DNA of 64,000 nucleotides, from positions 1-64,000 of the IMG/VR virus record IMGVR_UViG_3300033141_002949. The stretch is one strand, 5' to 3'. The position numbers and the translations under genes are program-made. How positions within the stretch are numbered: position 1 is the first letter of the stretch; the number at the start of each line of letters is the position of its first letter. Source of the DNA: a virus. The notes under the pieces were generated by a model. It was not told the origin of the DNA, searched no databases, and saw nothing but the letters and a program-made list of their open reading frames with translations. Positions 4,531 through 59,293 of this stretch are shown here, one piece after another.

Positions 4531-7105
4531 ATGACAAACCTGTACAAAAAAGGTGCCCACTGTGCGGGGTGCCCCCTACGCACAGGGGTTTTGGTGCCAG
4601 GCCGTTGGGCGCGGGGGGCACAGGGGGATAAGGCGGATGTAGTGTTAGTAGGCGAGGGGCCGGGGCGCTTCGAGGTTGCCTTCGGCAAAGCCTTCGTAGG
4701 CCCCAGCGGGGAGCTGCTCGACAAAGTTACGCGCGGTCTCAATCTCGGCAACGTGTACCTGACCAATACAGCCTTATGTCAAGTGGAGGGCGACAAGGAC
4801 AAAGCCGTAGCCGCCAAACACTGCCGGGAGCGCCTGTTCGCTGAGTTATGTCAACTGCAACCCCGCATCATCGTGGCCCTTGGCAACGTGGCTATGATGA
4901 CGCTGCTATCCTGCCCCTCAGGGATCACCAAGCGGCGCGGTGTGTTGCATGACGTAGTGCTGAACGGCAAGCGCGTCCCGGTGATGCCCACGTTCCATCC
5001 TGCGGCGGTGCTGCGTAACCCCGGCTGGTACACCGATTTGCGCGCCGACCTGAGCACTGTAGCTACGCTACTAGAGCAGCCCAAGATCGACGCTACATCG
5101 CGCAGGCCCATAGATGTGTCCTACACGGTAACTCACGATGTCGGTGAGGTCTTTCGTGCCGCCGAGCGTGGCGACTACGCTGTACTAGACCTGGAGACTG
5201 AGGGCCTGGACTGGACGCGGCACAAAATCCTGTGCGCCGTGATCGCCACGGCGCAGGGGGTGTACATCGTCCCGCAGGATGTCGTGTACGGAGAGGAATT
5301 CAAGCGGCGACTACGGGAGTCGCGTGTTGCCTGGTCAGGACACAACGCCAAGTTCGACCGCAACTTCGTTTTGGCCCACCTGGGTGTGCCGCTGAAATTC
5401 AAGTTCGACACTATGCTGGCCAGCTACCTGCTGGACGAGCGCGGCGGCATACACAGCTTGAAGGACATCGCGCGACGCATGTACGACGCTCCCGATTGGG
5501 AAGCCCCGATACAGGATGCCCTGAAGGGCAAAGTCACTCTGCCGGATGGAGGGAAGCGCAACAAGCACTACGGAGACATCCCACGGGATACGCTCTTCCG
5601 CTACGCTGCACAGGATGGGCACTACCAGTACAAGCTGACCTGGGACCTCGCCAAACAAATCGTGGCACAGGGGAGGTTGCGTTGGGTGTTCGAGAACCTG
5701 TTGATGCCCGCGACGGACGCCCTCTCCAACGCGGAGGTGCGCGGCGTGCAAATAGACGTGGACTATCTGAGGAAACTACGACCGGAGTATGAGAGGCGCT
5801 GTGACGCCCTGACCCGCAAAATGGTCGACATAATCGGGCACGACCTGAATCCCCGCTCCCCTGTGCAAGTCGCCAAAGTGATCTTCGATGAGTTGGGCGT
5901 CCCCCAGCATCACCGCTTTGGGCGCAGCACAAACTGGAACAACGTGCTCATGCACCATAGGGACGTGCCCTTCGTGGCGCTGCTCGGCGACTTTCGCAAG
6001 GCGGACAAACTCCTCAGCACCTACGTGAAGGGTCTGCTCAAATACGTGGACGCGCAAGATCCGCCTCGCGTACATACCACGTACAAGATCCACGGGACGG
6101 TTACGGGGCGCCTGAGCAGCGAGGCCCCCAACATGCAGAACATCCCACGGGATGTCAAGGACATCAAGCGGGCCTTCGTTGCAAGCCCAGAACACCTGTT
6201 GATCTACGCGGATTTCAGTCAGATCGAGTTGAGGATGCTCGCCTGGTTCTCCCGCGACGAGTGGCTGATGCAGGTGTACAGGGATGGACGGGACCTGCAT
6301 GGGGAGATGGCCGAGGTGTTGTTCGGCGAGGACTACACCCCGGAGCAGCGAAGCTTTGCGAAACGTCTAAATTTCGGTCAACGTCTGCAAGGCCGAAGAA
6401 AAACTCGCTCAATTGCTGGAAACCTAACCCTGCGAAGGTATGGCAATCAGCAGCCAGGGCATCTAGGGATAGATGCGAATGGTTCAGAGACTCACAGCGC
6501 AACTAGACCAGTTGCGGTCTGGGATGCCGCGCAAGCGGCATAACACGGCGAGACCAGACACTCTGGTAAGGTATAGTCCACGCCACACCGAAAGGGTGGA
6601 GCACGTGATTGCATATGGTCGTAGTGTTGTAGCTGTGGCTGAGGATGGTATGTACGACCTGAGGGCGGAGGACGCGGAGCGCATCGAGCGGGATTTCTTC
6701 GGTCGAATGCCGGGCGTGGTGAAATGGAAGGAGCGTGTCTATGACGACCTGTTAGCACAGGGGTACATCGAGAGTCCTACGGGAAGGCGTAGGCGGTTCC
6801 CGTTCATACCGGAGCGGGGGTCCTCACGTGCTGCGATCTTCCGTGAGGCAGTGAACTTTCTGCCGCAGTCGTCGGCGTCCGACGCGACGCTGCTGTCCTT
6901 CATCCATTGCGACAGCGCGGGCTTGCGTCCCATACTGACGGTTCACGACTCCATCCTGTGTGACGTGCCAGGGAAGAGCGCCAGCGACGCGGCGGAGACG
7001 CAGCGTGAGATCATGGAGCGCACCGCCCGAGACCTGTACGGGGGGAGTGTACCTTTCATTGTCGAGATTGGCACAGGGAAGAACTGGGCAGACGCGGAGG
7101 GATAA
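4531..7105 (+). CDS. polA: UDG-exonuclease-DNA polymerase I fusion, split by a group I intron (join 4531..6378, 6608..7105)
   Basis: Removing the 229-nt intron gives one 781-residue protein. Residues 1-180 are a family-4-like uracil-DNA glycosylase: CAGC (11-14), GEGPG (41-45), C98, FHPAAVLR around H156. Residues 205-385 are the 3'-5' exonuclease (D220, E222, D276, D362). Residues 390-781 are the family A polymerase: motif A YADFSQIELR with D561; O-helix R607, K611, F615, Y619, where Y619 lies in exon 2; motif C VHDS with D730. There is no 5'-3' exonuclease. Read without splicing, the frame stops at 6543 before the O-helix is complete, so a functional enzyme needs splicing. It presumably replicates the phage genome; the glycosylase fusion suggests linked uracil repair. 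The final A overlaps the MazG-like start. Confidence 0.92.
6379..6607 (+). ncRNA. Group I self-splicing intron in the polymerase gene
   Basis: Conserved elements are readable in order: P AATTGCTGGAAACC (6411), Q AATCAGCAGCCAGG (6445), R GTTCAGAGACTCAC (6482), S AAGGTATAGTCC (6568). P1 is exon TTCGGT (6373-6378) paired with internal guide GCCGAA (6392-6397), with the expected U-G pair at the splice site. P10 pairs 3' exon TTGCA (6609-6613) with TGCAA (6386-6390). P4 is TGCTG/CAGCA; R/S pair through GACT/AGTC. P6, P8 and a GCAA-tetraloop hairpin (6524-6541) are clear. The intron ends in G6607 and splicing restores NFG-IAYG in frame. It has no endonuclease gene and its length is not a multiple of three. 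Subgroup IA is likely. Confidence 0.95.
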
Positions 7106-26671: not shown

Positions 26672-27898
26672 CTAAACGCTAATACCCATCGGCGCATGAA
26701 GTTCCCTCGTGACCAGCTGGTAGGCCTCCCACGCGCCATTTTGTGCCCCCCACGGGCATATCTGCTGCGCGTATGGAGGGTTGTCGGGGATCATCTGCCA
26801 ACGCTCCACGAGATTCTGTGGCGGCCCATACGTGTCGAGCGTCTTCGCCACCCGCGCCGTAGCCAACGCTGCAACCGCTCGCGCCATGCGGGGACTCATC
26901 CAGCCGTGAGCGTTCAGGGCTACCCCCGCCTGATAGTGACAACGCACCACGTCTGGTCGTCCAGGGAGGCTCCCGGCCACCCAAACAGCGTCGTCCTCAT
27001 CCCACGTGGCCGGAATGACGTGTACGTCGCTCGTCACACCGTCGCGCACCTGCATCACTCCACGCCGAGCTGCGTAGTACGTAGGGTCTGTTGTGGCGAT
27101 GCTTTGACGAAGGAACTCCACAGGGGCGTTGTCCTCTCCCTCCGTGGTCGTCGTCTCACGATAGACATTCACTGTCTTCAGGTAGTTGTCGGGGTCGTCG
27201 CCATCGATCCCGCGCGTAGCACCCTCCTCTGTGCCGTAGTACTCCCACAGGTCGGGCAGCACGAATTGAGCGCTGTTTCCGCGAATCGTAATGCCCGTTT
27301 CGAGCAACGTAAAGCGCAGGAACCGTATACGGTTTTCGCACGACACGTCGTCGTTGTGGACGACTACGATCTCCCCGGCAGACCAACCGCTCGCGTCTAT
27401 GTCGGGGATCACAATCTCTGCGGTCTCCTTGAAGCCGTCCCCATCATTGTCAATATAGTCTACTGTCACGTCCAACGCGACCTCCTGGACGCGACGACGC
27501 CCAGGCGCTTGCAGGTGCCCCCAATTCAAGGTCATTCGCGGATACAGCCTATAAAAATCCCTGTATCCGGCTGGGATGTCGTGCAGTTGTAGCAAACCAA
27601 CCTCAGGCAGCCCCGTCGCCCGTGGGAACTGATGTACCTCGTTCGTGATCCATACGGGGGCGGGCCAATATCTCAACCTTTCGGCGATGGTCTGTTCCGC
27701 CTCTGCGATGGCCACGGCCAGCTCTTCACGGGAGGCCTTGCCGCTGGCCATCCAACCGTGCTGGTACCACAACGTAGACACATCCCGTTTAGGCGGGAAC
27801 TGCGCACAGATGACCGAGTTGAAATGTCTCGGCTCTTGGCCGGTGATGAACGCATATTGATCCAGACTCAGGAGTGTCGGGGTGCTCGCTTTAGCCAT
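26672..27898 (-). CDS. Structural protein at the head-tail junction, family unknown
   Basis: 408 residues, starting at ATG 27898 (after GAGGAG) in an overlap with the stop of the glycosyltransferase gene. Central segments are beta-rich (VALDVTVDYIDNDGDGFKET), and the C-terminal third is helical (MSPRMARAVAALATARVAKT). It may be a neck/completion or connector protein judging by position between capsid-side and tail tube genes. I recognise no family. Confidence 0.5.
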   Translation of the reverse strand: MAKASTPTLLSLDQYAFITGQEPRHFNSVICAQFPPKRDVSTLWYQHGWMASGKASREELAVAIAEAEQTIAERLRYWPAPVWITNEVHQFPRATGLPEVGLLQLHDIPAGYRDFYRLYPRMTLNWGHLQAPGRRRVQEVALDVTVDYIDNDGDGFKETAEIVIPDIDASGWSAGEIVVVHNDDVSCENRIRFLRFTLLETGITIRGNSAQFVLPDLWEYYGTEEGATRGIDGDDPDNYLKTVNVYRETTTTEGEDNAPVEFLRQSIATTDPTYYAARRGVMQVRDGVTSDVHVIPATWDEDDAVWVAGSLPGRPDVVRCHYQAGVALNAHGWMSPRMARAVAALATARVAKTLDTYGPPQNLVERWQMIPDNPPYAQQICPWGAQNGAWEAYQLVTRELHAPMGISV

Positions 27899-30534
27899 CA
27901 GCGCTCCTCTACGGGGACGACCCTGAAGATGCCCGGCCATCGCCTCAGGAAGAAGTCCACGTCCTTAGACTTAACGTACTGCCTCGAATCCTTGCCTTCT
28001 CCAAAGTGGTATCTGCCGCCGCCCGGCACGCGGAGGACTCTGTGCCCAGAAATCCCAGAGGACATCTCCAACAGCACGCCTCTATCCTTGACATCATTGG
28101 GCTGCGTTTGCAACACTGTAGGTCGCTTCACTTGCAGGATACCATTAGAGGCCCCTGACGCGCATCGACTGCAACTGCGTCTGGGTTTGGGAACCGCCGA
28201 TGCGTACCTGGCTTTGATCCTCTCCAAAAGCTCGTCCTCTCGCTCCAGACTTGCCTCGCGGCGCAGCCCTGTATCGTAGCAGTACACGAACAGCGGCTTC
28301 GGAACGCGGACGCCTTTGTACCCCTCCAGGCCCAGACGGATCATATAGTCCCAATCTTCCCACAAAGGGAGCGTTTCGTCAAAACCGCCAACCGTCTTCC
28401 AGGCCGCCTTAGGATGCACGTTGGTCACGGCAAAGAGCGCGTACTCCAACAAACGGGACAGGTTCCAGTTCTTCGCCTGATGTTCCTTGCCCTCGGGACT
28501 CGAAATCCAATCCGTGTACACGATGACGGAATCCGTCTCGCAGTTCTCGGTGATCTCCAAGGTGGCCTTGAAGTAGTCCCTCAGGAGATAGTCGTCGGCG
28601 TCCAGAAAGCACAGGAACCGCCCACGCGCGATCTCCGCCCCTACATTGCGCGCTGCGGAGACGTTTCCTGGGTGTGGATTCTCCAACCAACGCACCCAGG
28701 GGTACACCTGCTCGTAAGGTATCGCGCCCCCTTGCTGGCGCAGAGGGACGATCTCCTGCGTATCGTCCACGACAATGAGCTCCCATCGCGGGTCCGTCTG
28801 CGCCGCCACAGACTCTATGGCTTTGCGGACGTGCTCTACATGGCGCGGGCCTACGGGGATGACCACCGAGACCATCGGCTCGTCGTAAGGGTAGACAGGA
28901 TGCGAGATATGCTTCGGCGGCACACGGGAGGCAATGGGCTGCGACCCCCCGTTGGCCCCCGGGAGCCAAAAGGACCAGTCTGGCTCCTTCCCTGCGCCAC
29001 GAACCTTGCTGGTCGCGCTCTTATCGTGCATCCGATAGACATACACCGGCTCCTCGGTGACTTGCGCGATGTCGTAGCCGGCGAGGGTCAGGCGCGTCCA
29101 CAGCTCCGCGTCCTCTGCCGGAGCCAACAGTTGTCTGAAGCCCCCTGTACGGAGGAAAGCCTCTCGACGCATCATGTTGAAGCTGGGCACGCAGTTCTGA
29201 CGATTCACCTGCTTCGACGCATCGAAAGCGCCCGGCCAGGCGCCCACGCTTGTGGTCTTAGCCTCCGCGTCGGTCAGATACAGCTTTCCGTAGGCCAGCC
29301 CCAGACGACGATCCGCAAGCATCGGCTTCAGCAGTCGCCTCAACGCGCCAGGCATCAGGAAATCATCCGCGTCGAGGAAGCATATGAATGGAGCCTCAGA
29401 CGCCATTGCGCCGGCGTTGCGTGTGTCGGCGACGCCTGTGTTCGCTTTGTCGATTACACGACAGCGGGGGTCGTCGCCTATGGCCTCGCGGATGACCTCC
29501 AGAGAGCCATCCGTCGAGCCGTCGTTGACTACGATCAGTTCCCAATCGACGCCTTTCTGCTCTTTGACACTCTCAATAGCCCTGCCCACGTACTGTTCGT
29601 AATTATAACACGGAATGATAACCGAGACCTGCGCCTGCGACTCCTCCCGTTTGGCAGCTAAAGCGGCGTTGTACACCGTGCGATACGCACGCGCAGCGTT
29701 CTTCCAGGTGTACGACAGCGCCCTCTCTCGTGCGGCCTTGCTCAAGCGTTCGTAGTTGTCCAGAATATAGTGCAGGCCCTCCCGCTCAGCGTCCAGATCG
29801 TAGGGATCAACCAGATATCCCTCAACGTCGTGCCGCACGATGTCCGGCGTCGCCCCCCACTTCCAACCGAGCACAGGGAGACCGGCGGCCATCGCCTCCA
29901 ACGTCCCGATGCCAAACGTCTCCTTGGTGGACGAATAGTAGATGCCACACCTGTAGATGACCTCCCGCATTCGTTGTATAGGCTGGAGGCCGATGACCGT
30001 GACGTTGCGGGCTTCTTCGCCAAAGGTGGTCACGAACCGAAAATCTGGACACGCCTCCGCGAGTCGGTTTACGGGCTTGGGGTTGCATACGTCTGTATCG
30101 CGGTTCTTGTTCCACAGGACGATAGCGCGCACCTCTCGCGGTCCCGGTGCAGGCCACTCCCGCATGTCTATCCCATGCGGGACGACATGCGGCCAGAAGC
30201 CTAGGTCGCGGGCGAAGATCTCCCCGACCCACCGGCTGGGCACGGTCACGGCGTATGCCGAACGCACCGCGTCTATGACGCGCGCGTTCACCTCCCACGC
30301 CCAGGAACCCATAGACAACGACGCCGTAGGGTACAGCCCGTGACAATGCACCACATCAACCGGATCGCCGTTAGGCGAACAGATGTGGACGGCTCGCAAA
30401 TGCGCATCATCGCGGTCGGAGGTCAACTCGACGCCTACCGCTGGCAGTGTGCGGTGCATGTAATACACAGCAACGTCGAGACCGCTGTTGAGGCGCTCTA
30501 CAGGTTTTGGATTTGGATGCAACCAAACTCTCAT
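27898..30534 (-). CDS. Triple glycosyltransferase fusion (GT4-GT2-GT2)
   Basis: 878 residues. About 1-300 is a GT-B fold GT4 transferase (VVPHGIDMREWP, STKETFGIGTLEAMAAGLPV). About 305-530 is a GT-A GT2 unit (VSVIIPCYNYEQYVGRAIES, FLDADDF). About 545-790 is a second GT2 unit (VSVVIPVGPRHVEHVRKAIE, FLDADDY). The last 90 residues hold a CSRC pair and an unknown tail. It would add sugars from nucleotide-sugars to a virion protein, host glycan or DNA base; the acceptor is unknown. Its ATG has no adjacent ribosome site; see the hairpin leader at 30535-30593. Confidence 0.85.
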   Translation of the reverse strand: MRVWLHPNPKPVERLNSGLDVAVYYMHRTLPAVGVELTSDRDDAHLRAVHICSPNGDPVDVVHCHGLYPTASLSMGSWAWEVNARVIDAVRSAYAVTVPSRWVGEIFARDLGFWPHVVPHGIDMREWPAPGPREVRAIVLWNKNRDTDVCNPKPVNRLAEACPDFRFVTTFGEEARNVTVIGLQPIQRMREVIYRCGIYYSSTKETFGIGTLEAMAAGLPVLGWKWGATPDIVRHDVEGYLVDPYDLDAEREGLHYILDNYERLSKAARERALSYTWKNAARAYRTVYNAALAAKREESQAQVSVIIPCYNYEQYVGRAIESVKEQKGVDWELIVVNDGSTDGSLEVIREAIGDDPRCRVIDKANTGVADTRNAGAMASEAPFICFLDADDFLMPGALRRLLKPMLADRRLGLAYGKLYLTDAEAKTTSVGAWPGAFDASKQVNRQNCVPSFNMMRREAFLRTGGFRQLLAPAEDAELWTRLTLAGYDIAQVTEEPVYVYRMHDKSATSKVRGAGKEPDWSFWLPGANGGSQPIASRVPPKHISHPVYPYDEPMVSVVIPVGPRHVEHVRKAIESVAAQTDPRWELIVVDDTQEIVPLRQQGGAIPYEQVYPWVRWLENPHPGNVSAARNVGAEIARGRFLCFLDADDYLLRDYFKATLEITENCETDSVIVYTDWISSPEGKEHQAKNWNLSRLLEYALFAVTNVHPKAAWKTVGGFDETLPLWEDWDYMIRLGLEGYKGVRVPKPLFVYCYDTGLRREASLEREDELLERIKARYASAVPKPRRSCSRCASGASNGILQVKRPTVLQTQPNDVKDRGVLLEMSSGISGHRVLRVPGGGRYHFGEGKDSRQYVKSKDVDFFLRRWPGIFRVVPVEER

Positions 30535-56901: not shown

Positions 56902-57909
56902 ATGAGTAAACCTGTCATACACATCACCGACGTGCAGACCTTCGTGCAGTGTCGCTACCGATGGTACTACTCGTCGCCGCTCCAGAACAACCTGGAGCCT
57001 GTACGACCCAACAAGCACTTGCTGTTGGGCACAGCCGTCCACGCGGCGTTGGCCGCGTACTACGACCCGTCGGTGCCACGCTCGGCTGACGTGCTCATCA
57101 GCGCATACGAAGAGCACACAGCCGAGGCATTGGTCGCGTTGGAAAGGGAGATCATCGAGGTTCCCGAGGACGTGATCGAGGCCTACAGCTTGGGTCGCGT
57201 CATGCTGGACCACTACGCAGTGTGGGCGCCCCATCACGATGATTTCGAGGTCCTGTTGACCGAGTACACGCTGGAGCACGACTGGGGGGATTTCACGTTC
57301 CAAGGGACTGCCGACGCCGTGGTTCGTAGGGGCGACGACCTGTGGATTGTGGAGCACAAGACGTACACCCACGTGCCGTCGGGGACCGCGCTGGGCTTCT
57401 CTATGCAACCGCCAGCGTACATTCACGCCGCTCGAAGGGACCCCGAGATAGTCAAGCACGGCAACGTCGTGGGTGTCCTGTACAACATCCTGCGAAAGTA
57501 TCCCCCTGCCAGTCCGGGGGTCCTCAAGTCCGGCAAGCTGTCCCGGCGTGCCAATATCGCTTGCAGCCCCTACTGGTTCGCGCACTGCGTGCGCGAGGCC
57601 GGCCAGGACGTATCGGAGTACGCGGACTTCATTGACACGTTGGACCCCTTCAAGTTAAACTACCGAGCATACATCACCGTGAGCGACCAGCGGATGCGCG
57701 TGTTCGAGGATTATCTGCGTGTCCTGGCGGACGAGATGCTGAACGAGCACAACGTTAGGCTGTACCCCGCGAATCCCATATACAACTGTGACAACTGCGG
57801 GTACCAATCCCTCTGTGCCCAAGCCCTGTACGGTGAGCCGTGGGAGCCGCTGGTGGGCTTGGAGTACAGAGATCGATCCACCGGTGGCGAGGACGATAAA
57901 CATGATTGA
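56902..57909 (+). CDS. Cas4/RecB-like PD-(D/E)XK nuclease
   Basis: 335 residues. FVQCRYRWYY (C18), GTAVHAALAAYY (H47), GTADAVV (D138) and IVEHKT (E151, K153) form the nuclease core; CDNCGYQSLC near the C-terminus with C18 makes an iron-sulphur cluster site. This is the Cas4/AddB-type exonuclease pattern, here likely used for recombination with the nearby Sak4-like ATPase, not for CRISPR adaptation. GAGGAGG precedes ATG 56902. Confidence 0.85.
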   Translation: MSKPVIHITDVQTFVQCRYRWYYSSPLQNNLEPVRPNKHLLLGTAVHAALAAYYDPSVPRSADVLISAYEEHTAEALVALEREIIEVPEDVIEAYSLGRVMLDHYAVWAPHHDDFEVLLTEYTLEHDWGDFTFQGTADAVVRRGDDLWIVEHKTYTHVPSGTALGFSMQPPAYIHAARRDPEIVKHGNVVGVLYNILRKYPPASPGVLKSGKLSRRANIACSPYWFAHCVREAGQDVSEYADFIDTLDPFKLNYRAYITVSDQRMRVFEDYLRVLADEMLNEHNVRLYPANPIYNCDNCGYQSLCAQALYGEPWEPLVGLEYRDRSTGGEDDKHD

Positions 57910-59293
57910 TGGTATAACGCTTCACTGTGGCGATGTCATTGATGTCGCCAAAGACTTTCCAGATGAATCCTTCACTGCGGTTTTCACGGACCCGCCGTAT
58001 GGGTTATCTGGCACGCCAGATATGGTTGACGTGTTGAGCCATTGGCTGAACGGTGACGACTACGTGGCGCGTGGCGGCGGATTCATGGGCAAGTCGTGGG
58101 ACTCGTTCGTGCCCGGGCCTAGCGTGTGGAAGGAAGTGTTCCGTCTGCTGGTCCCAGGTGGGGTGCTGCTTGTCTTTGCTGGCACGCGAACTGCCGATCT
58201 TTTAGGGGTGGCTATTAGATTAGCAGGCTTTGAAAAGTTCGACGAGATTGACTACTTGCACGGCGGGCTGCCCCCACAGATAGAGTGGTTGTATGGCTCG
58301 GGGTTCCCCAAGTCACACGATGTTAGTAAGGCCATTGACCGTGAGGCAGGGGCAGAGCGAAAGGTGGTGGGACGAGTCAAGGGTCGCGGAAGCAATAGCG
58401 GAGAGGGGCGTTACAACTGGAACAATCCTGACGATAAGGCTGATAGGACATGGTATGACGCCACGGTTCCCGCTACGCCCGCCGCCCACATCTGGGCTGG
58501 CTACGGCACAGCGCTTAAACCCGCACATGAAATCATCCTGTGCTTCCGCAAGCCGCGTGAGGCTACCTACGCACAGACGGCGGTGGAACATGGCGCGGGG
58601 GCGCTGAACATAGATGGGTGTAGGATTGAGACGAACGAGAGCACGGTTAGAACTGTTGGTAGAACAGCAGCAGACGGGTGGGGCCTGAACAAGCAGGCTG
58701 GGCTGACACGAGGAAGCGATCGAGGTCGCTGGCCTGCTAACGTCATCCTGGATGAGGAGGCGGGTGCTCTGCTGGACGCGCAGAGCGGGTACAGCAAAAC
58801 GAAACGTATTGAGAAGCCTTCTAACTGTGGCGGCACGTTTCAGACGAATCGGGGACCACGCGGACACACCGACTCTGGCGGCGCTTCCCGCTTCTTCTAC
58901 TGCGCTAAGGCCAACAAGCGCGAGCGAGACGCAGGGCTGGAGGGCATGGATCAAAAGAGGCGCGATCTCTCTCGCCATTCTGAACAACCCAGCATGAATA
59001 GTGGAGAGGGCAACCCGTACAATCGCGGCGTAATCCCCGTATTCAATTATCATCCGACGATTAAGCCGTTAGCCCTCTGTGAGTATCTGGCGCGCCTCAT
59101 CGTGCCACCGCTAGAGTACCGTGACACGGCGCGGCTCCTGGTGCCGTTTGCTGGCTCAGGGAGCGAGATGATAGGTGCGATGCAGGCGGGCTGGCGGAAC
59201 GTCGCAGGCATAGAGATAAGCGAGGAGTATATCGAGATTGCCAAACAACGCATAGCGTACTGGTGCAAACAAGGTGTACAAGACAAGGAATAG
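57902..59293 (+). CDS. DNA N4/N6 methyltransferase
   Basis: 463 residues. VFTDPPYG (DPPY 30-33) is the catalytic motif and VPFAGSGSEM near the C-terminus binds SAM; the order is beta-class. The middle (about 190-390) is a large insertion with Cys/His residues. It would methylate adenine or cytosine N4 in phage DNA against restriction. It overlaps the nuclease gene. Its target is unknown. Confidence 0.88.
   Translation: MIDGITLHCGDVIDVAKDFPDESFTAVFTDPPYGLSGTPDMVDVLSHWLNGDDYVARGGGFMGKSWDSFVPGPSVWKEVFRLLVPGGVLLVFAGTRTADLLGVAIRLAGFEKFDEIDYLHGGLPPQIEWLYGSGFPKSHDVSKAIDREAGAERKVVGRVKGRGSNSGEGRYNWNNPDDKADRTWYDATVPATPAAHIWAGYGTALKPAHEIILCFRKPREATYAQTAVEHGAGALNIDGCRIETNESTVRTVGRTAADGWGLNKQAGLTRGSDRGRWPANVILDEEAGALLDAQSGYSKTKRIEKPSNCGGTFQTNRGPRGHTDSGGASRFFYCAKANKRERDAGLEGMDQKRRDLSRHSEQPSMNSGEGNPYNRGVIPVFNYHPTIKPLALCEYLARLIVPPLEYRDTARLLVPFAGSGSEMIGAMQAGWRNVAGIEISEEYIEIAKQRIAYWCKQGVQDKE

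Follow-up and report, generated by a model that had tools for sequence, protein, structure and literature searches.

A predicted compact group I intron within motif B of a phage family A DNA polymerase gene

The window, that is, the 64,000-nucleotide stretch analysed here, covers positions 1 to 64,000 of a 65,353-base IMG/VR virus record (IMGVR_UViG_3300033141_002949) from an uncultivated phage. A family A DNA polymerase gene locates near its start, in two parts that encode 781 aa once the exons are joined. Pfam matches give the domain order uracil-DNA-glycosylase, exonuclease and PolA. The parts of the gene are listed below.

4531..6378, + strand: exon 1 of the DNA polymerase gene, 616 codons, ending in KRLNFG (PF03167, PF01612 and PF00476 positions 2-216)
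6379..6607, + strand: predicted 229-nt group I intron, inserted just after NFG of motif B, with no endonuclease gene and no P2 (RF00028 match and covariation)
6608..7105, + strand: exon 2 of the DNA polymerase gene, from IAYGRS... of motif B to the stop (PF00476 positions 210-381)

Exon 1 carries a uracil-DNA-glycosylase-like domain, a 3'-5' exonuclease and the N-terminal part of PolA up to NFG of motif B. At window 4531-5025, the N-terminal domain of the uracil-DNA-glycosylase superfamily (PF03167) is fused to the exonuclease and PolA. Exon 2 lies in a different reading frame, keeps an intact motif C region and stays open. In the polymerase ORF (4531-6543), the family likeness ends past KRLNFG, and a second ORF, starting at 6473, matches the remainder of PF00476. 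The ORFs and PF00476 thus agree with the earlier note, by which the frame breaks after NFG of motif B and resumes at IAYG in another frame. Automated annotation would miss such an intron and report one essential gene as two wrong ones. Elsewhere in the window, among structural genes, 27898-30534 (- strand) encodes an 878-aa protein with one glycosyltransferase stretch of group 1 and two of group 2. An N6/N4 DNA methylase at 57788-59290 (+ strand) matches a 221-position profile over residues 64-487, which suggests that it carries a large insertion.

Taking out 6379-6607 joins the frames and restores motif B. The joined segment RSFAKRLNFGIAYG aligns without gaps throughout to RRSAKAINFGLIYG of E. 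coli Klenow, and the restored spacing of R607-K611-F615-Y619, which the earlier note had proposed, is gapless both in this alignment and against all relatives spanning the junction. The intron bounds and the 6378/6608 junction that it gave are exact to the nucleotide. A search for related loci from the single polymerase protein gave no match; an alignment-based query was needed to recover relatives. With it, 80 related polymerases were fetched from viral contigs by a ranking that favours intact genes, and all 77 whose matches span the region (77/77) are colinear with the joined protein and uninterrupted. The three closest among those fetched, all uninterrupted, are 49, 46 and 44% identical.

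A rival to an RNA intron is an intein or a programmed frameshift. Inteins also sit in conserved motifs, as this element does; however, the interval offers no continuous frame linking the exons, and an intein would need more than 229 nt. Stop codons within the interval exclude an intein, and a programmed frameshift is excluded because the 229-nt extra sequence is absent from relatives. What is conserved in the interval, moreover, is RNA pairing, and we give an intein or a frameshift practically no credence.

The covariance-model check proposed in the earlier note returned a positive match. Intron_gpI (RF00028) matches the interval over the full model with 41 bits (E=4.8e-9) in a permissive scan of 601 nt, and with 38 bits (E=3.8e-6) at the 64-kb scale, both below the curated Rfam cut-off of 50 bits. 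The default scan with curated cut-offs is empty for that reason. Three other phage polymerase introns also score under 50 bits (PM135 34, BSP7 48.5, Youna2 31), so the cut-off is no useful divider here. The permissive scan of the whole 64 kb gave no other Rfam match with a small E-value. Together with its flanks, the interval folds better than shuffled sequences (z=-3.2).

The elements of the predicted fold, all on the intron-bearing strand, are as follows.

6372..6398, + strand: P1, exon UUUCGGU (6372-6378) pairing with the internal guide GCCGAAG (6392-6398); pairs checked
6386..6390, + strand: P10 5' strand UGCAA, pairing with exon 2 UUGCA (6609-6613); read from sequence
6404..6552, + strand: P3, 6404-6409 with 6547-6552; two-sided change in the ECO111 relative
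6413..6453, + strand: P4, 6413-6418/6448-6453, enclosing J4/5 and P5 (6423-6429/6437-6443); pairs checked, covariation
6454..6482, + strand: P6 (6454-6456/6480-6482) and the P6a hairpin (6459-6476)
6487..6579, + strand: P7, the guanosine site, 6487 and 6489-6492 with 6575-6579; bulged A6488
6499..6541, + strand: P7.1 (6499-6515) and P7.2 (6524-6541, GCAA tetraloop), between P7 and P3'
6553..6567, + strand: P8, reduced to 6 bp closed by a 3-nt loop; site of the endonuclease gene in the relatives L209, PR1 and PM135
6580..6607, + strand: P9.0 (6580-6582/6604-6606, ACG/CGU), P9 with a GAAA loop (6583-6599) and terminal G6607

When P1, P3-P9, P7.1 and P7.2 are written out, every pair is standard and no mismatch occurs; the same sequence display also gave P9.0 and P10. 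The 5' splice site is marked by U6378.G6392 in P1. The P, Q, R and S elements, P1 with its U-G pair, P10, the GNRA hairpin and the terminal G, as listed in the earlier note, were all found. The group I core is complete, with P3, P4, P6, P7 and P8 accompanied by the P/Q/R/S elements and supported by covariation. Stems such as P7.1 and P7.2 between P7 and P3' are typical of subgroup IA, to which the intron is assigned on this feature. The ORF list holds no endonuclease ORF in the interval, as the earlier note had stated, so that the homing endonuclease expected of a mobile intron is missing. A genome-wide profile search confined to HNH profiles gave no match in the phage record. Searching the same record with the L209 endonuclease gave no relative, which is weak proof alone.

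Covariation across related introns supports the predicted fold. We aligned the window intron with those of PR1, PM135 and ECO111, with the endonuclease genes excised; 85% of the cells pair, versus 33-38% in slid controls. Against these T5-like relatives, 14 pairs changed on both sides, a count reached by 0/500 shuffles. P6a has two-sided changes at 6 of its 7 pairs in this alignment, whereas the P7 pairs are invariant. Compared with L209, a further relative described below, 12 pairs show two-sided change, with one in P1 (C-G to U-A in L209) and one in P9.0 included, the P9 columns being misaligned in this pairwise alignment; P9.0 also changes on both sides in the four-sequence comparison. Across 33 distinct intron cores, 89% of the cells are paired versus 26-50% in slid controls, and 15 pairs have two-sided changes. 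In this set, P4, P6 and P7.1 are 96-100% paired, two-sided changes occur at all 7 pairs of P6a, and P7.1 is 99.5% paired with two-sided changes at 5 of 6 pairs; P7.2 is seen in the window intron. The aligned introns are kin, so that the counts of two-sided changes are not independent events. P8 and P10 were left out of the comparison across relatives, their columns being taken by the endonuclease gene or by differing exons.

With the Rfam match, the full core, the restored motif, the uninterrupted relatives and this covariation, the earlier note's proposal of a group I intron in motif B (the O-helix) holds. We consider it very likely that the interval is a self-excising group I intron of subgroup IA type, derived from a mobile intron lineage of motif B. 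A decayed ribozyme, of group I origin yet unable to splice, would leave the phage with the truncated, exonuclease-bearing exon 1 protein alone. The Rfam scores below the curated cut-off and the open frame running into the intron fit decay; the core helices, however, are all intact with zero mismatches, P1 and P10 fit the exons of their own gene, exon 2 stays open and retains its motif C region, and an untargeted look at the genes annotated here noticed no second DNA polymerase. Decay therefore appears very unlikely to us.

Related introns place the interval in a wider context. A blastn search first pointed to PR1 and PM135; in both, an intron breaks motif B of the polymerase gene 2 nt further downstream than in the window. 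In BSP7 and Youna2, the nearest cultured polymerase relatives found, motif B is likewise interrupted, at +2 nt in the former and +7 nt in the latter. A core-pattern search found L209 (IMGVR_UViG_3300035701_000016), with an intron at exactly the window position; the gene in its P8 is HNH-type (PF01844, E=0.0011, just below its cut-off). A shorter core pattern found 43 stretches, of which at least 28, besides L209, have an intron after motif B of a family A polymerase, within 7 nt. Besides PR1 and PM135, at least 28 uncultivated contigs use the +2 site. Many such contigs have intronic ORFs of 220-290 codons with LAGLIDADG-type motifs (Pfam-confirmed for PR1), and the introns of L249 and L270 are compact. 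An assembly error or chimera that put foreign sequence into the gene could be imagined for a metagenomic contig, but the insert pairs specifically with the exons on either side, and related introns occur in the same motif in independent contigs and isolates; we regard an artefact as extremely improbable.

A pattern of NFG followed by the core gave 110 stretches in viral contigs, but in none of them did it mark motif B of a polymerase. With a stricter core pattern, PR1 and PM135 were the sole matches from viral sequences; three matches came from bacterial genomes and were taken as chance, their surroundings being without other core elements. The phiNIT1 intron is positioned upstream of motif B, and exon 1 of KASIA, whose splicing was demonstrated by RT-PCR (PMC8541194), stops upstream of it. 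In the reported split polymerase of OM43 phages (OP830906, MEP401; L206:4240-4560), the break is likewise upstream of motif B.

Introns of the window intron's lineage are found in a second gene too (L248:4142-5170), with the junction sequence shared by L241, L247, L252, L255, L263, L266 and L276. In L248, the gene reads as an SF2-type helicase that is split in its apparent Walker A motif (INALVGWG / KKTFTALHIA), with DEAH further downstream. In L260 and L243, a near-consensus sigma-70 promoter-like sequence (in L260 TTGACA, 18 nt, TATAAT) lies inside the intron just 3' of P7.1, upstream of the LAGLIDADG gene, and perhaps drives this gene separately.

As this comparison shows, group I introns land repeatedly in motif B of phage family A polymerases. 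Three positions within 7 nt are in use, and the introns there have a LAGLIDADG, an HNH or no endonuclease gene. Polymerases of Bastillevirinae are often split (PMC11878797). A literature search, mostly of work outside subscription journals, found no paper naming motif B as an intron site. The earlier note described a minimal intron in the most conserved part of the gene. Motif B and the lack of an endonuclease gene bear this out, but the site is not singular. The intron looks reduced rather than primitive, as relatives have P2 and an endonuclease gene in P8. Nor is 229 nt exceptional, since introns of gut jumbo phages average ~206 nt (PMC12363816).

Read from exon 1 in the unspliced RNA, the frame stays open far into the intron.

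6541..6543, + strand: first in-frame stop (TAA), 54 codons into the intron; ORF reading

In relatives with a readable junction, the stop comes 2-7 codons into the intron, versus 54 codons in the window and 60 in L209. A stop soon after the splice site is believed to prevent ribosomes from entering the ribozyme (PMC3984707). With 54 open codons, ribosomes could disturb folding. The long open frame may be incidental and accompany the 2-nt shift of the site. We also entertain, as a doubtful idea, that the window intron and L209 form a branch shifted 2 nt upstream in motif B that lost the early stop; ribosomes would run through the core, and competition between translation and folding could set splicing and polymerase output. 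If true, the regulation would differ from that proposed for phage introns with early stops.

Group I introns splice themselves in a reaction initiated by guanosine. Here, the intron RNA would fold around P3-P9 after transcription, with P1, bearing the splice-site U.G, holding exon 1 and P10 holding exon 2. An external guanosine would bind in P7, and two transesterifications would excise the intron, join 6378 to 6608 and restore motif B. The anatomy, position and relatedness of the intron can be read from the sequence, from which we infer catalysis, splicing and the direction of loss. The ancestral lineage, an endonuclease gene in its P8, was presumably mobile and inserted into motif B of phage family A polymerases, and the window copy, in which the P2 stem is missing, would have lost or never regained this gene. 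Given the endonuclease gene in P8 of relatives and the 3-nt P8 loop here, gene loss in the window lineage would be the simpler reading of the order of events.

Among the related systems, the L209 intron is closest in position. It occupies the identical site after the FG codons of motif B, lacks P2, has a core 69% identical and leaves the exon 1 frame similarly open. Unlike the window intron, it is 751 nt long with its endonuclease gene in P8, and its host polymerase is only ~26% identical to that of the window. Such similarity at the identical base in so distant a polymerase suggests that the lineage moved horizontally. The introns of the T5-like Providencia phage PR1 and Proteus phage PM135 share the motif and the lineage (core ~65-67% identical); in contrast, they lie 2 nt downstream (FG-AT|), are 1110-1111 nt long, possess P2, contain an intronic ORF in P8 (LAGLIDADG in PR1), and meet a stop 3-4 codons in. 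Bacillus phage BSP7 and Weizmannia phage Youna2 have PolA genes in which Intron_gpI matches split motif B. The BSP7 intron is also compact (279 nt, no endonuclease gene), whereas the sites (+2 in BSP7, +7 nt in Youna2, 654 nt long) and the core sequence differ. SPO1, SP82, Bastille and Pf-WMP3, as well as phiL7 and PhiI/W31, also have group I introns in family A polymerase genes, some of them self-splicing, but the reported phage sites correspond to E. coli positions 674, 676 and 881 and not to motif B (PMC3428280).
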